The translations under genes were made by a program, and so were the position numbers. Of a DNA stretch of 45,974 nucleotides, positions 3,059-18,244 are shown one piece after another. Source of the stretch: Streptomyces sp. SID3212 (GTDB lineage Bacteria; Actinomycetota; Actinomycetes; Streptomycetales; Streptomycetaceae); contig NZ_WWJY01001052.1 of NCBI RefSeq assembly GCF_009865405.1, positions 1-45,974 of the forward strand, in the 5' to 3' direction. How positions within the stretch are numbered: position 1 is the stretch's first letter; each line of letters opens with the position of its first letter. The notes under the pieces are model-generated. The model saw only the letters and a program-made list of their open reading frames with translations, was not told the DNA's origin and did no database searches.

Positions 3059-3125
3059 CGATCCACAGGTTTGATCCACAGCCAACTCGACTTATCCACA
3101 GGCAATTTGGCGATGCTGTGGACAA
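3059..3125. promoter_or_regulatory. Cluster of DnaA-box-like sites upstream of kptA
   Basis: Four 9-mers resembling the Streptomyces DnaA box (TTGTCCACA) lie in 67 bases: CGATCCACA (3059-3067), TGATCCACA (3072-3080), TTATCCACA (3092-3100), and TGTGGACAA (3117-3125), which is a perfect box on the minus strand. The stretch lies between kptA and the stop of the MerR gene, so it is free of functional coding. DnaA binding is inferred. Confidence 0.6.
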
Positions 3126-11852: not shown

Positions 11853-12545
11853 ATGCCATCGGAAGTCGCCTTGCTCGAATCGCGCACCATGCGCGCCGAG
11901 CACCTGGGGCGGGTCGACGCCCTCGACAAGGTCAAGGCCCTTGTCATGCTCCCGGATGGAATTCACATCCGCACAGAGGACGCGTCCCGGTACTTCGAAG
12001 TATCCACAGACGTCATCAGGCAGTTGACGGCACGGCACCGGGCGGAGCTGACCGAGAACGGGATGCGCGTGCTTCGAGGCTCTGACCTGCGAAGCTTTCA
12101 TAGTGACAACATGTCACTCTCATCGGGGGGTGGCGGAAGTTATCCACAGAGGCGCTCCAGCCTGACCCTCTACAGCCGCCGTTCCGTCCTCAACATCGCG
12201 ATGCTGCTTCGCGACAGCGACATCGCCCGGTGCGTCCGTACGTACCTCCTCGACGCCGAAGAGGGCTGGCGCGAGGGGTACGTGTCCCTGGACCGGCGCC
12301 TCACCAACGTCGAGGCCTGCCTCGGCGGAGTCGGCGTCGCCCTCCAGGAACTGGGTCCCGTCCTGAACCGGATGTCCATCCGGCTCGACAACCTGGACCG
12401 GCGACTGGACGCCACCAACAAGGTGGTGGCGGCGATGAGCCACCGGCTGTGCGCCATGTCCGACGACATCAAGCGCATCGACGGCAGGGTGGACGACGTC
12501 GTGCACGAGCTGAGGGATCTGCGCCGCGGCCGTAGGCGCCGCTGA
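11853..12545 (+). CDS. Antirepressor-like DNA-binding protein with C-terminal coiled coil
   Basis: A 230-residue protein with GGAAGG before ATG 11853. Residues about 30-70 (GIHIRTEDASRYFEVSTDVI, RQLTARHRAELTENGMRVLRG) resemble the ORF6N/Rha-type DNA-binding domain of phage antirepressors. Residues about 105-135 (LTLYSRRSVLNIAMLLRDSD, IARCVRTYLLDAEE) match the second motif common in BRO/KilA-N-like regulators. The C-terminal 70 residues form a heptad-rich coiled coil (LDNLDRRLDATNKVVAAMSH) and end with RRGRRRR. It is probably a transcription regulator derived from a phage-type protein, but it is found in many streptomycetes, so it may be domesticated. A TTATCCACA DnaA-box-like sequence lies inside the gene at 12140-12148. 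Confidence 0.7.
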   Translation: MPSEVALLESRTMRAEHLGRVDALDKVKALVMLPDGIHIRTEDASRYFEVSTDVIRQLTARHRAELTENGMRVLRGSDLRSFHSDNMSLSSGGGGSYPQRRSSLTLYSRRSVLNIAMLLRDSDIARCVRTYLLDAEEGWREGYVSLDRRLTNVEACLGGVGVALQELGPVLNRMSIRLDNLDRRLDATNKVVAAMSHRLCAMSDDIKRIDGRVDDVVHELRDLRRGRRRR

Positions 12546-12611: not shown

Positions 12612-12893
12612 GCCGTACCGTACGTACCGCTCACCGCGTCGCGTACCGCGTGCTTCGTGCCGCCCGTAATTCGGTGGCGTCGAACCGGCCTACCGGGCAC
12701 AGTGGTCGGTGTTGGAGCACCACCACAGGACCGGGAGAGGAGCGCGGCGATGACGGGGAGTTGCAGTCCGTCGAGTTCCCACCAGGGCAGCGTCGCGCAG
12801 GCTCCGGAGTAGCCATCATCTGCTCCGCGTAGCCGCCGACACACCGCCCGGGGCGGCCGCTTCGAGCGCGCACACGCGCGGGCCGCCCTTCCC
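12612..12893. other. Spacer before tRNA-Ser(GCT), no gene recognised
   Basis: The gap from 12546 to 12893 has no ORF with family features. A 20-codon reading frame at 12750-12812 starts after GAGAGGAG, which looks like a ribosome site, but its peptide (Ser-rich, no hydrophobic segment) is not recognisable. The rest probably carries the tRNA promoter. Confidence 0.4.
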
Positions 12894-12982
<89 letters not shown>

Positions 12983-13035
12983 CGCAAGGGCCAGGAAAGC
13001 CATGCACCCACAAGGCACCCCGGACCTACGAAGTC

Positions 13036-13917
13036 TCAGCCCTGAAGCAGCAGCTTCTCCAGCACCACCGCGATGCCGTCGTCCTCGTTCGACGCCGTGA
13101 CCTCGTCGGCCACGGCCTTCAACTCCTGGTGCGCGTTGGCCATCGCCACGCCGTGCCGCGCCCAGCCGAACATCGGGATGTCGTTCGGCATGTCTCCGAA
13201 CGCGATCGTGTCCGCCGCCTTCACGCCCAGCCGGCGCGCCGCCAGCGATAGCCCTGTGGCCTTGCTCAGCCCCAGCGGCAGGATCTCCACCACACCGGCG
13301 CCCGCCATCACCACCGCGACCATGTCACCGACCGCCGCCCGCGCGACCCGCGTCAACTCGTCGTCGTCCAGGACGGGATGCTGGATGTACACCTTGTTCA
13401 GCGGCGCCGAGAACATCCTCACCGGATCGTCCTCGGACACCGATGCGAGCGGCCCCTCGTGCACCCGGTAGCCGGGGCCGAACAGCACCTCGCCGTCCAG
13501 GCCGTCCTGGCTCACGGCCAGCGCCAGCGGGCCGACCTCCGCCTCGATCTTGGCCAGCGCCGCTCCGGCCACCTGCCGGTCCAGCGTCACCGACGTCAAC
13601 AGCCTGTGCTCACCCGCGTGATAGACCTGCGCGCCCTGACCGCACACCGCCAGACCGTCGTACCCGAGGTCGTCGAGGATGCGCCGGGTCCACGGTACGG
13701 CGCGCCCCGTCACGATGATGTGAGCGGCGCCCGCCGCGGTCACTGCGGCGAGCGCTTCACGGGTGCGGGGGGAGACTGTGGAATCCTCACGCAGCAGCGT
13801 GCCGTCGAGGTCGGTCGCCACAAGCTTGTACGGGAACGGCGCCCCCGTACCGGCGGAGTCGCCGGCCGAGGAGGCCGAAGAAGCCGAGGAAGCCGAAGCG
13901 GCGGCGGCGTCGCTCAC
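13036..13917 (-). CDS. HAD-superfamily (Cof-type) phosphatase
   Basis: A 293-residue protein whose GTG start overlaps the stop of serS (GTGA at 13914-13917), so both are made from one mRNA. The N-terminus is a low-complexity Ala/Ser stretch from a 9-bp-like repeat. HAD motif I is [10 protein letters not shown] (the nucleophile and acid Asp pair), motif II is the Thr in HIIVTGR, the motif III Lys is in [10 protein letters not shown], and motif IV is [12 protein letters not shown]. The large insert between motifs II and III is the Cof-type C2 cap. Cof-type HADs dephosphorylate sugar phosphates and cofactors such as FMN; the substrate here is not readable. Coupling to serS is common in streptomycetes. 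Confidence 0.9.
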
Positions 13918-15191
13918 TTGGCGATCGGCTCCAGGACCTCACGCCCGCCCAGGTACGGACGGAGCACCTCGGGCACCCACACGGAACCGTCCGCCTGCTG
14001 GTGGTTCTCCAGCAGCGCCACGATCGTGCGCGGTACGGCGCACAGCGTGCCGTTCAGCGTCGACAGCGGCTTGACCTGCTTGCCGTCCCGCATCCGGATG
14101 GACAGCCGGCGGGCCTGGAAGCCGTCACAGTTGGACGCCGACGTCAACTCGCGGTACTTGCCCTGCGTCGGGATCCACGCCTCGCAGTCGAACTTCCGCG
14201 AAGCGGAGGCACCCAGATCACCCGAGGCCACGTCGATCACCTGGAACGGCAGTCCGAGAGCGCTCAGCCACTGCTTCTCCCAGTCCAGCAGCCGCTGGTG
14301 CTCGGCCTCCGCCTCCGCCGGGTCGACGTACGAGAACATCTCGACCTTGTCGAACTGGTGGACCCGGAAGATGCCCCGCGTGTCCTTGCCGTACGTCCCC
14401 GCCTCGCGGCGGAAGCACGGCGAGAAGCCCGCGTAGCGCAGCGGCAGCTTGCCGGCCTCGATGATCTCGTCCATGTGGTACGCGGCGAGCGGGACCTCCG
14501 ACGTACCGACCAGGTAGTAGTCGTCCTTCTCCAGGTGGTACACGTTCTCCGCGGCCTGGCCGAGGAAGCCCGTGCCCTCCATCGCGCGCGGGCGGACCAG
14601 CGCGGGTGTGAGCATCGGGACGAGGCCGGCCTCGGTGGCCTGGGCGATCGACGCGTTCACCAGCGCGAGCTCCAGCAGCGCGCCGATCCCCGTCAGGTAG
14701 TAGAAGCGCGAGCCGGACACCTTGGCGCCCCGCTCGACGTCGATGGCGCCCAGCGACTCGCCCAGCTCCAGGTGGTCCTTGGGCTCGAAGCCCTCCGCGG
14801 CGAAGTCGCGGATCGTGCCGTGCGTCTCCAGGACGACGAAGTCCTCCTCGCCGCCCACCGGGACGTCGGGGTGCACCACGTTGCCCAGCTGGAGCAGCAG
14901 CCGCTTGGCCTCGTCGTCGGCCTCGTGCTGCGCGACGTCGGCCGCCTTGACGTCGGACTTGAGCTGCTCGGCCTTCCTGAGCAGCTCGGCCTTCTCCTCG
15001 GGCGAGGCCTTGGGGATCAGCTTGCCGAGCGACTTCTGCTCGGAGCGCAGCTCGTCGAAGCGGAGGCCGGACGACCTGCGCCGCTCATCGGCGGAGAGCA
15101 GGGCGTCGACGAGCGCGACGTCCTCTCCACGGGCGCGCTGGGAGGCGCGGACACGGTCGGGGTCCTCACGGAGCAGGCGAAGGTCAATCAC
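13914..15191 (-). CDS. serS: Seryl-tRNA synthetase
   Basis: A 425-residue class II synthetase of full length, starting with GTG ([20 protein letters not shown]). Residues about 30-110 are the antiparallel coiled-coil arm that binds the long variable arm of tRNA-Ser. The catalytic core shows [11 protein letters not shown] (motif 2 region entry), the motif 2 segment [20 protein letters not shown], and motif 3 near [20 protein letters not shown]. It charges both tRNA-Ser genes in this window as well as others. Upstream lies a 677-base spacer, unusually long for a housekeeping gene, with DnaA-box-like sites. Confidence 0.97.
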
Positions 15192-15449
15192 CCCACAAGG
15201 CTACCGGTGCGCACCGACACCACCCCACTCGATATCGGCACGCGTGTCTCTTTGTCCTGCTTGCCGGAATTGTGCAAATTGGGAAAGTTGTGAAACGCGC
15301 GCATCCGTGAAGGAGAGGCTGACCCTGGAGGGTATTCGCCTCACGTCAATGAAAGTGATCCAATTCCCCGGAAAGGGGCAGTCGGGCCTCGCCGCCTTGA
15401 CTCACCGTCCTTGTGGGGAAGGGGACTTGGGGGCGGCGACCGCGTTGAG
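15192..15449. other. First part of the serS-pheA spacer
   Basis: This part holds no gene I can support. It includes an AT-richer stretch (15250-15300) about 60-110 bases upstream of serS that probably contains the serS promoter. Confidence 0.4.
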
Positions 15450-15768
15450 TTGTCCACAGTGGGCTGTGTGTTACCGGCAAAGTTATCCACAGGCTGTGTG
15501 GGAGTTCTGTGGATGGTGGAAGCGATCATTCCGGGGTCTGCGTGCGGGGCGAAGAATTCCCCGCTCAAACCCACTTCACACACTCATTCGGGTGGGAATG
15601 GCTCACTCTGACGAGTTGGTCGCTGGAATTGGGGTGACACGGGCGACCTGGCGCCCTGTGGACGGGAGTGGGGCGACTGGGGTGATTTGTCGACTGTGCC
15701 GGGTTGGGTTATCGACTTGTCCCCAGGTCGAGAAGCAAGCCTGTGGATAACTTTGGTCTGCATCCACA
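15450..15768. promoter_or_regulatory. DnaA-box cluster in the serS-pheA spacer
   Basis: Seven DnaA-box-like 9-mers lie in about 320 non-coding bases. Plus strand: TTGTCCACA (15450-15458, perfect), TTATCCACA (15483-15491), TTGTCCCCA (15717-15725) and GCATCCACA (15760-15768). Minus strand, read on plus as: TGTGGATGG (15508-15516), TGTGGACGG (15657-15665) and TGTGGATAA (15742-15750). They fall in two groups about 200 bases apart. In S. coelicolor a high-affinity DnaA-box cluster outside oriC (called D78, about 78 kb from oriC) limits replication initiation; from memory serS lies at about that distance, so this may be the equivalent site. Confidence 0.7.
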
Positions 15769-15868
15769 GGCTGGCAAGGATGCGCAGGCCCGAGACGTAC
15801 GCGTGCCGTGCGGAGGTGTACCGCGTGCACGTGCGCTGGGTTACGTGAGCCGGTCGCGGCCTCCGCGC

Positions 15869-16804
15869 TCAGGTCCGGCCGTCCTGGCTGCGCGCCAGCC
15901 AGTCCGCCGCCTCGATGAACTCGGCGTCCGAGGTGCCGGCCCGCAACTGCCCCGCGTCGGCCGCCGACACCCCCGCCCGGGGGTACGACCCCAGGAAGCG
16001 CACCTTGGGGCAGATCCGCTTGAGCCCCATCAGCGCCTCCCCCACCCGCCGGTCCGAAATGTGCCCCTCGGCGTCCACGGCGAAGCAGTAGTTACCGATG
16101 CCCGCGCCCGTCGGCCGCGACTGGATGAGCATCAGGTTGACCCCTCGTACCGCGAACTCCTGGAGCAGTTCGAGCAGTGCGCCGGGGCGGTCGTCGCCCA
16201 GCCAGATGACAACCGAGGTCTTGTCGGCCCCGGTGGGCGACGCGGGCCGCGCGGGCCGGCCCACGAGCACGAACCGGGTCTCGGCGTTCTCCGCGTCGTG
16301 GATCTCGGTGACCAGCGGCGTCAGCCCGTACGTCGCCGCCGCGAACTCACCGGCGAACGCCGCGTCGAACCGCCCCTCCTGCACCAGCCGCGCGCCGTCC
16401 GCGTTCGACGCCGCCGACTCCCAGAGCGCGTCCGGCAGATGGGTCCGCAGCCAGTTGCGCACCTGGGGCTGCGCGACCGGATGACCGGTCACCGTCTTCA
16501 CCGCGGAGAGCTCCGTGCCGGGCCGTACGAGCAGCGCGAAGGTGATCGGGAGCAGCACCTCGCGGTAGATCATCAGCGGTTCGCCGGAGGCGAGTTCGTC
16601 GAGCGTGGCGGTGACTCCGCCCTCGACCGAGTTCTCGATCGGTACGAGTGCGGCCGCGGCGTCCCCGTTCCGTACGGCGTCGAGGGCAGCCGGTACGGAC
16701 ACCATCGGGATCAGCTCGCGCGTGGCGGCTTCCGGGAGCGTGCGGAGGGCTGCCTCGGTGAAGGTGCCTTCGGGGCCGAGATACGTGTAGCGCGTGGCCG
16801 ACAT
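15869..16804 (-). CDS. pheA: Prephenate dehydratase
   Basis: A 311-residue monofunctional enzyme converting prephenate to phenylpyruvate for phenylalanine synthesis. The start MSATRYTYLGPEGTFTEAAL is the usual one. The catalytic periplasmic-binding-like domain (residues 1-180) shows PIENSVEGGVTATLDEL and VTGHPVAQPQVRNWL, and ends near the Thr-Arg-Phe triad (AETRFVLVGR). The ACT regulatory domain (about 190-275) contains PGALLELLQEFAVRGVNL and QSRPTGAGIGNYCF, the usual ESRP region with Gln instead of Glu; it binds Phe for feedback control. It lies 90 bases after the peroxidase gene on the same strand, but the DnaA-box spacer follows rather than another gene. Confidence 0.95.
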   Translation of the reverse strand: MSATRYTYLGPEGTFTEAALRTLPEAATRELIPMVSVPAALDAVRNGDAAAALVPIENSVEGGVTATLDELASGEPLMIYREVLLPITFALLVRPGTELSAVKTVTGHPVAQPQVRNWLRTHLPDALWESAASNADGARLVQEGRFDAAFAGEFAAATYGLTPLVTEIHDAENAETRFVLVGRPARPASPTGADKTSVVIWLGDDRPGALLELLQEFAVRGVNLMLIQSRPTGAGIGNYCFAVDAEGHISDRRVGEALMGLKRICPKVRFLGSYPRAGVSAADAGQLRAGTSDAEFIEAADWLARSQDGRT

Positions 16805-16894
16805 ACAGTCACCCTAATAGGCCGGTGGAGGTGCCCGCCCCGGGATCACGCCCCTGAGCGCTACCCGTACGGCGCCCAAGACTTGGGCCTGGGC

Positions 16895-18244
16895 CTAGGC
16901 CTCCAGGAGGCGCTGGCCCACGTACTCGCCCTCGCGTGCCCCGCCCGGCACCGCGAACAGCCCGCTCGCCTCGTGGCGAATGTACGCCGAAAGCGCGTCG
17001 CCGCGGTCGAGCTTGCGTTGCACGGGTACGAATCCCTTGAGCGGATCGGCCTGCCAGCAGACGAAGAGCAGCCCCGCGTCCGGCGTTCCGTCCGGGCCGA
17101 TCCCGTCGTGGAAGGAGAAGGGGCGGCGCAGCATCGCGGCTCCGCCGTTCGCCTCGGGGGCGGAGATGCGCGCGTGTGCGTTGCCGGGGATGACGAGCTT
17201 GCCGTCGGGTCCGACGGTGTCGAGGGCGGGCTCGGTGTTCTCCGTCCCGCCGGTGAGGGGCGCGCCGTCGGCCTTGCGGCGGCCGATGACCAGCTCCTGT
17301 TTGTGGAGGGAGAGTTGTTCCCAGTCGTCGAGGAGCATGCGGATGCGCCGTACGACGGCGTAGGAGCCGCCCGCCATCCAGGCGGTGTCCTCGGAGGACG
17401 TGGTGTCGGCCGCGGGGGTGGCCGGCACGAAGACGCGCCGGTCGAAGTCGGGCTCGGACGGTTTGGGGTTGGCGGTGCCGTCGAGTTGGCCCATGAGGTT
17501 GCGGGCCGTCATGGGGTGCGGGGTCGCGCCGGGGGTGCGGTTGAAGCCGTTCATCTGCCACCGGACCCGGGCGGCGGAGCCCGCGTCCTTCTGGAGTGTG
17601 CGCAGCGCGTGGAAGGCGACCAGCGCGTCGTTGGCGCCGATCTGGATCCAGAGGTCGCCGTCGCTGCGCCTGCTGTCGAGGTGGTCGGAGGAGAACGGGG
17701 GGAGCGGGTCGAGCGCGGAGGGCCGGCGGCCGGTCAGGTTCGTACGGTCGAAGAAGGTACGGCCGAAGCCGAAGGTGACGGTGAGGGAGGACGGGCCGGC
17801 GTCGAGGGCGACGCCGGTGTCGTGGCCGGCTGCCGGTTCCCCGGCCATCAGTGCCCGGGCCGAAGCGGACCAGCGGCGCAGCAGGGCGCTCGCTTCCTTG
17901 CGTCCCGCTCCTGGCGCCAGGTCGAAGGCTACGAGGTGGCCCCGCGCGTGCAGCGGGGTGGTGATGCCGGGCTGGTGGGCGCCGTGGAAGGCGACGGTGT
18001 CCGTGCCGACGGTGGTCAGCGCGGTGACCGGGGCGGGCTCGCTGCGACCGGCGGCGGAGGCCGCGGCTCCGCCTGCGGCGCCGAGCGCCAGTCCGGCGGC
18101 TCCGACGGCGCCCGCGGTGCCGAGGAGGCGGCGGCGGGAGACGCCGTCCGGGCGGTCCTGTTCCTCCCGGTCGTTCAGCTCGTCTCGGCCGTTCCGGTCG
18201 TTCCGGTCGTTCCGGGCGAGGTTGTTCTGCCTGGTGTCGCTCAC
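16895..18244 (-). CDS. dtpA: Tat-secreted DyP-type haem peroxidase (DtpA-like)
   Basis: A 449-residue protein with a twin-arginine signal: SRRRLLG at residues 36-42, then a hydrophobic Ala/Gly stretch to about residue 66. The DyP motif GxxDG is at 252-256 (GQLDG, catalytic Asp255), the likely proximal haem ligand is His357 (GNAHARI), and the distal Arg is in MLRRPFSFHDG. In S. lividans the orthologue in this same cluster, DtpA, is a Tat-exported peroxidase needed for maturation of the copper oxidase GlxA at hyphal tips. It lies 4 bases after the CopC-CopD gene and ends the copper cluster. EfeB of the iron-uptake system is the nearest alternative name, but no EfeU or EfeO is present. Confidence 0.92.
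   Translation of the reverse strand: MSDTRQNNLARNDRNDRNGRDELNDREEQDRPDGVSRRRLLGTAGAVGAAGLALGAAGGAAASAAGRSEPAPVTALTTVGTDTVAFHGAHQPGITTPLHARGHLVAFDLAPGAGRKEASALLRRWSASARALMAGEPAAGHDTGVALDAGPSSLTVTFGFGRTFFDRTNLTGRRPSALDPLPPFSSDHLDSRRSDGDLWIQIGANDALVAFHALRTLQKDAGSAARVRWQMNGFNRTPGATPHPMTARNLMGQLDGTANPKPSEPDFDRRVFVPATPAADTTSSEDTAWMAGGSYAVVRRIRMLLDDWEQLSLHKQELVIGRRKADGAPLTGGTENTEPALDTVGPDGKLVIPGNAHARISAPEANGGAAMLRRPFSFHDGIGPDGTPDAGLLFVCWQADPLKGFVPVQRKLDRGDALSAYIRHEASGLFAVPGGAREGEYVGQRLLEA

Follow-up and report, generated by a model that had tools for sequence, protein, structure and literature searches.

Streptomyces hyphae contain many chromosomes, and the limits on initiation of replication in them are poorly understood. 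In S. coelicolor, a cluster of DnaA boxes called D78 (Smulczyk-Krawczyszyn et al. 2006, J Bacteriol 188:6184) is said to lie about 78 kb from oriC. Reportedly, DnaA has a higher affinity for this cluster than for oriC, and initiation increases when the cluster is lost. In Escherichia coli, datA uses IHF, and the DARS sites reactivate DnaA, an action opposite in sign to that of a cluster whose loss increases initiation. PMC4451416 describes datA as an intergenic DnaA-box cluster more than 450 kb from oriC, on which a higher-order DnaA complex is formed, and reports eight intergenic DnaA-box clusters on one chromosome of Bacillus subtilis. DARS1 and DARS2 of E. coli appear in PMC4585315 as non-coding groups of DnaA boxes that act on the DnaA cycle.

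The element described here, located in the spacer between serS and pheA of Streptomyces sp. SID3212, is of the datA/DARS type in being an intergenic DnaA-box cluster outside oriC, and differs from datA in its distance to the origin. Loci of the datA/DARS type have a bending-protein site (for IHF or Fis) between their boxes; in the present element two conserved blocks between the box arms, M1 and M2, are candidate sites. The likeness to D78 consists in the density of perfect boxes, an about equal distance from the origin and the same genus, whereas helical phasing of the arms and the blocks M1 and M2 are features of this element that are not known to have been described for D78.

The window, i.e. 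the whole stretch of DNA that was analysed, comprises 45,974 nucleotides. The serS–pheA spacer occupies positions 15192–15868 (677 bases) between the start of serS at 15191 and the stop of pheA at 15869, both on the minus strand. A first-pass annotation of this DNA had noted seven DnaA-box-like 9-mers on both strands of the spacer, and all of them were found at the positions given there. With TTRTCCACA taken as the perfect box and its mismatched forms as weaker boxes, three are perfect (TTGTCCACA once and TTATCCACA twice), and the other four are weaker. The gap between the two groups is nearer to 250 than to the 200 bases given in the annotation, the inner perfect boxes being 259 apart from start to start. 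The features are as follows.

3072–3125, no strand assigned: second, smaller box group (TGATCCACA, TTATCCACA and an opposite-strand TTGTCCACA) beside a kptA-like open reading frame
13914–15191, minus strand: serS, seryl-tRNA synthetase, downstream of the element (named from the earlier annotation and the synteny of relatives)
15450–15768, no strand assigned: the whole element, two DnaA-box arms with conserved blocks between them
15450–15458, plus strand: R2, perfect box TTGTCCACA of the serS-side arm
15483–15491, plus strand: R1, inward-facing perfect box TTATCCACA in the serS-side arm
15508–15516, minus strand: weak box CCATCCACA with the core TCCACAG
15518–15533, no strand assigned: GATC dyad, partly kept, beside the right arm
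15657–15665, minus strand: weak box CCGTCCACA of the variable middle part, shared by some relatives
15684–15694, minus strand: block M2 (GTCGACAAATC)
15710–15724, minus strand: block M1 (consensus GGGGACAAGTCGACA; the window copy has one mismatch)
15717–15725, plus strand: weak box TTGTCCCCA, overlapping block M1
15742–15750, minus strand: L, inward-facing perfect box TTATCCACA in the pheA-side arm
15760–15768, plus strand: outer weak box GCATCCACA
15869–16804, minus strand: pheA, prephenate dehydratase, upstream of the element in the serS direction (named from the earlier annotation)

When up to one mismatch to TTRTCCACA was allowed, the window contained 13 sites compared with a mean of 5.6 in shuffled sequences, and one of 100 shuffles reached 13. 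Perfect sites occur 54 times in the 7.98 Mb of the window's own genome. At this rate the Poisson expectation for three perfect boxes in 301 bases is 0.0020 (P = 1.4 × 10−9), and P is still about 4 × 10−5 once every stretch of that size is allowed for. Across 80 named loci, the 700 bases preceding serS contain 4.6 perfect boxes per kb, compared with 0.11 per kb for the remaining 1.58 Mb. These data confirm that the DnaA-box cluster in the serS–pheA spacer is real. Taken one by one, the four weaker boxes are not notable and are common enough for chance. A lone perfect TTATCCACA at 12140–12148 lies inside a plus-strand open reading frame (11853–12545) that gives weak Pfam matches of coiled-coil type only and adjoins a tRNA-Ser gene (12894–12983). 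In many of the named loci, a pair of boxes 25 bp apart is present about 8–11 kb downstream of serS.

For its proposal the annotation had named conservation between Streptomyces species as a check, and the boxes are indeed kept. The comparison began from 110 serS loci taken from among the matches listed (L010 to L119, L010 being the window itself). An inward-facing pair of perfect boxes, 200–340 bases apart, precedes serS in 109 of them, L047 being the exception. To these loci, of which L119 is Streptantibioticus by its title, 100 further regions were added from 121 genomes of the genus without a locus among the matches listed. Under a slightly stricter rule, both arms are present in 199 of the 201 distinct genus-level regions; the remaining two are L047 and L101, the latter failing by a context letter only. 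The same rule was applied to 40 regions from other genera of the family (40 of 93 such genomes among the matches listed). Here both arms were found in 27 and missing in 13, nine of which are devoid of perfect boxes over the final 1 kb before serS. Arm spacings in the other-genus regions are less regular than at genus level, and the right boxes stand in the order TGTGGACAA, TGTGGATAA in 16 of the 40 compared with one of the 199 genus-level regions, 146 of which show the reverse order.

A strict pattern, TTATCCACA-N(244-274)-TGTGGATAA, was found in 341 of 393 Streptomyces genomes, with one or two matches per genome, and the reversed pattern, used as a control, gave zero matches in the same 393 genomes. 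Double matches, among the matches listed, are overlaps of tandem left boxes at one place per genome. In a class-wide sample, the strict pattern was present in 23 of 28 Streptomyces genomes versus none of 268 genomes of other families. The idea that nine-base words have simply fallen together, to which the frequency of single weak boxes lends some colour, is refuted by the recurrence of this pattern and the empty control; we assign it practically no probability.

Read in the direction of serS, the element consists of the outer box, L (AGTTATCCACAGG), M1 (CTGGGGACAAGTCGACA, whose opposite strand holds the weak box TTGTCCCCA), M2, a variable stretch, the GATC dyad, the weak box with the TCCACAG core, R1 (CACAGCCTGTGGATAAC) and R2 (TGTGGACAA). 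In 105 of 199 regions, GCATCCACA is replaced by an outer box of the form TYRTCCACA that shares the strand of L and lies 12–13 bp beyond it. Several distances are nearly fixed: 25–29 bp between L and M1 (182 of 184 regions), 22 bp between the TCCACAG-core box and R1 (177 of 179) and 30–31 bp between R1 and R2 (142 of the 157 regions with R2). The full form of the GATC dyad occurs in 75 of 199 regions and GATC in 151. AGATCT is the ATP-DnaA box of E. coli. A box of this type is not claimed for the element, ACAGATCT being present in just 82 of 199 right arms.

The exact M1 15-mer was found in 12 of 20 genomes, at the serS–pheA locus only, and a general motif was rejected for this reason. With one mismatch, M1 is present at the serS locus in four more genomes and at five other places; in four of the 20 neither form occurs at the locus. 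Since M1 and M2 share GTCGACA, which is no usual DnaA box, one might suppose that conservation has another cause, such as a structured RNA, binding sites for some unrelated regulator or a small gene, with the DnaA boxes being incidental; TTGTCGAC was not found in 17 origins, some of which were parsed short. The perfect boxes are, however, among the best-kept letters of the spacer. An Rfam search of 12800–17000 matched nothing except tRNA, so a structured RNA was rejected, and a hidden gene is disfavoured because the conserved blocks are split by stretches of varying length. This explanation is therefore very improbable.

From gene order, the annotation had expected serS–pheA at about the distance of D78, and in relatives the locus does lie about 80–90 kb from dnaA as a rule. 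Measured from the start of serS to the DnaA ATPase domain, the distance is 77–137 kb (median 86 kb) in 56 of 60 genomes, with both genes on the same strand and dnaA downstream of serS; the 60 were hand-picked from 151 genomes among the matches listed for having serS on a large contig. Four genomes were left out of the distance: G010, with dnaA on the opposite strand at 80.6 kb, and G130, G112 and G025, in which dnaA is at the contig start and serS near the contig end. The window's own genome is split into 1270 contigs with dnaA on a separate one (C1075), and its position is inferred from the relatives. In S. violaceoruber NRRL S-981 the distance is 81.4 kb.

The published cluster names H24, H69 and D78 would imply intervals of 93 kb (24 + 69) and 9 kb (78 − 69). 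The box groups that occupy comparable positions in NRRL S-981, three in number, are separated by 94 and 9 kb; their absolute positions are 3–5 kb off the distances in the names. It is mainly because of the matching intervals that we call the locus D78. The S. coelicolor counterparts of serS and pheA are SCO3961 and SCO3962. By position, the element is most likely the orthologue of S. coelicolor D78; the locus has thus most likely already been published in that organism, and what is described here is its member in another species. For the helical phasing and the family-wide anatomy, no report was found in the literature searched, which did not include the 2006 D78 paper.

Three complete genomes (G004, G063 and G127) were mapped for further box groups. 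In all three, perfect boxes cluster around dnaA, with the recurring groups at most about 86 kb away, which distinguishes them from the clusters of B. subtilis. One group is located 19–21 kb from dnaA on the side away from serS (3/3 genomes), in the interval between crgA and a rhomboid gene as named in G063. At about 970–1200 of the corresponding loci (L281, L282 and L283; crgA–rhomboid in L282), two inverted TTATCCACA boxes, 33–43 bp apart, are conserved. A second group, also in 3/3 genomes, lies 33–35 kb from dnaA on the serS side, before dnaB as named in G004. Around 1000–1150 of L284, L285 and L286 (before the dnaB helicase gene in L284), TTGTCCACA and an inverted TTATCCACA stand 80–91 bp apart with weak boxes between them. 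The third group, 66–68 kb from dnaA on the serS side, is present in G004 and G063; in G127 there is no such pair. Its two loci (L287 and L288) carry the three boxes of the group at 3072–3125 of the window, at identical spacings. Separately, one Streptomyces genome, G066, matches the DnaA ATPase domain at full strength (246 bits) in an additional place (C1:3712208-3712693), remote from the usual dnaA. With several further box groups near dnaA, the serS–pheA element need not be the main site.

Box strength differs between the origin and the element. For the 1 kb after dnaA (the oriC region, counted as a fixed length in all 20 genomes) the means are 0.35 for perfect and 10.5 for one-mismatch boxes. 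For the element (about 350 bases) the means are 3.25 perfect and 2.2 one-mismatch boxes over the 199 regions, counts that are favoured since both arms had to hold a perfect box for a region to be picked. Initiator titration calls for such an arrangement, in which the strong sites lie away from an origin whose own sites are weak. On box strength, a second, oriC-like origin is disfavoured, the boxes of the element being few and strong and the weak ones sitting in the dnaA–dnaN region.

That the spacing of the two groups may matter for looping, as the annotation had suggested, is supported by the helical phasing of the arms, which is new in this analysis. The distance between L and R1, taken in each region as the smallest candidate between 225 and 330, changes in steps: 256–261 (141 regions), 268–271 (34), 278–281 (11) and 288–291 (5). 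None of the 199 regions shows a distance of 262–267, 275–277 or 282–287. The rest are found at 250, 273–274 (three regions), 294, 302, 303 and 312, of which 250, 273–274 and 294 are off-step exceptions. Distances between M1 and M2 (27–29, 38–40 and 48–49) and between M2 and R1 (202–206, 212–218, 222–226 and 232–237, with one at 194) step likewise.

Among L–R1 changes of at least 4 bp between independent pairs on a tree, which was built from the same region as the distances, 20 of 26 deviate by no more than 2 bp from a multiple of 10.5, with 13-bp differences scored against phasing; a period of 11.0 with the same tolerance of 2 bp accommodates 16 of 26. Background indels of 4–30 bp, taken from the flanking DNA of 33 related pairs, are near whole turns in 152 of 376 cases (Fisher P = 0.0003 for 20/26 versus this background, P = 0.002 versus a flat expectation), and in 38 of 122 cases when only lengths not divisible by three are counted. 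At a period of 10.5 the Rayleigh value reaches 0.83 when all 199 rows are used, but 0.50 when the 24 distinct values are. On the pheA side, which served as a control, 14 of 34 changes are near whole turns and thus unphased; the anchor used there is present in only 84 of 199 regions. A mutational bias to indels of 10–11 bp was rejected as the source, as the background indels of the 33 flank pairs show no such peak (lengths not divisible by three: 4 bp, 15; 5 bp, 10; 7 bp, 16; 8 bp, 14; 10 bp, 7; 11 bp, 8). A mix-up of tandem left boxes was also rejected, since 17 of 20 changes measured from M2, independently of box choice, are near whole turns. A looped complex would need such phased spacing and a plain sink would not. 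The whole-turn spacing of the two halves suggests that DnaA may join the arms into a loop.

Phasing was also seen, weakly, between R1 and the start of serS, where 33 of 55 independent changes are near whole turns (P = 0.005 versus background indels, but 0.044 versus the flat expectation). Together with the unphased pheA side and the location of the spacer upstream of serS and downstream of the co-directional pheA, this would fit a role of DnaA as a transcription factor for serS, in which a far-upstream control region makes seryl-tRNA synthetase follow the level of DnaA, any titration being incidental. However, the boxes lie about 90–600 bases ahead of the start, away from the promoter, and 79 different distances to serS were counted among the 199 regions. 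Such a role would also leave unexplained why the element and the other groups are near dnaA, and we regard it as unlikely.

The presence of conserved non-box blocks between two phased arms, and the locus specificity of M1 (exact 15-mer in 12/20 genomes), could further be read as signs of a datA-like site, at which a looped DnaA complex would speed the hydrolysis of DnaA-ATP and a bending protein at M1/M2 would replace IHF. Simple titration already accounts for the strong boxes and the position, and we regard this reading, too, as unlikely.

The observations made here on the boxes, on how they are conserved and where they lie in relatives, on box strength compared with oriC and on the phasing of the arms lead us to conclude that the spacer probably contains a strong predicted DnaA-binding element, most likely the D78 orthologue, which would titrate DnaA with its arms looped. 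Two arms of inward-facing boxes, about 260 bp apart and with conserved blocks between them, would offer sites that DnaA fills ahead of the weak boxes of oriC. Situated about 80–90 kb from dnaA, each copy of the element would be replicated soon after initiation and remove DnaA, so that re-initiation is held back. DnaA presumably occupies both arms and joins them into a loop, and the resulting complex would act as the regulator. According to PMC13270200, domain I of S. lividans DnaA interacts with itself and has been proposed to link distant box groups in oriC.

Titration explains why the boxes are strong and near the origin; by itself it leaves the phasing, M1 and M2 unexplained. A more elaborate version is rather unlikely: in place of a passive sink, a phased DnaA loop, its inward-facing arms both kept to one side of the helix and a protein bound at the GTCGACA blocks M1 and M2, would form the actinobacterial counterpart of datA and possibly touch the serS promoter. 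That nearly all boxes of the origin are weak, and that a few loci outside it hold the strong ones, is in line with initiator titration in Streptomyces. The phasing of the arms yields an extra prediction beyond those of a plain sink, and directs attention to the blocks M1 and M2.
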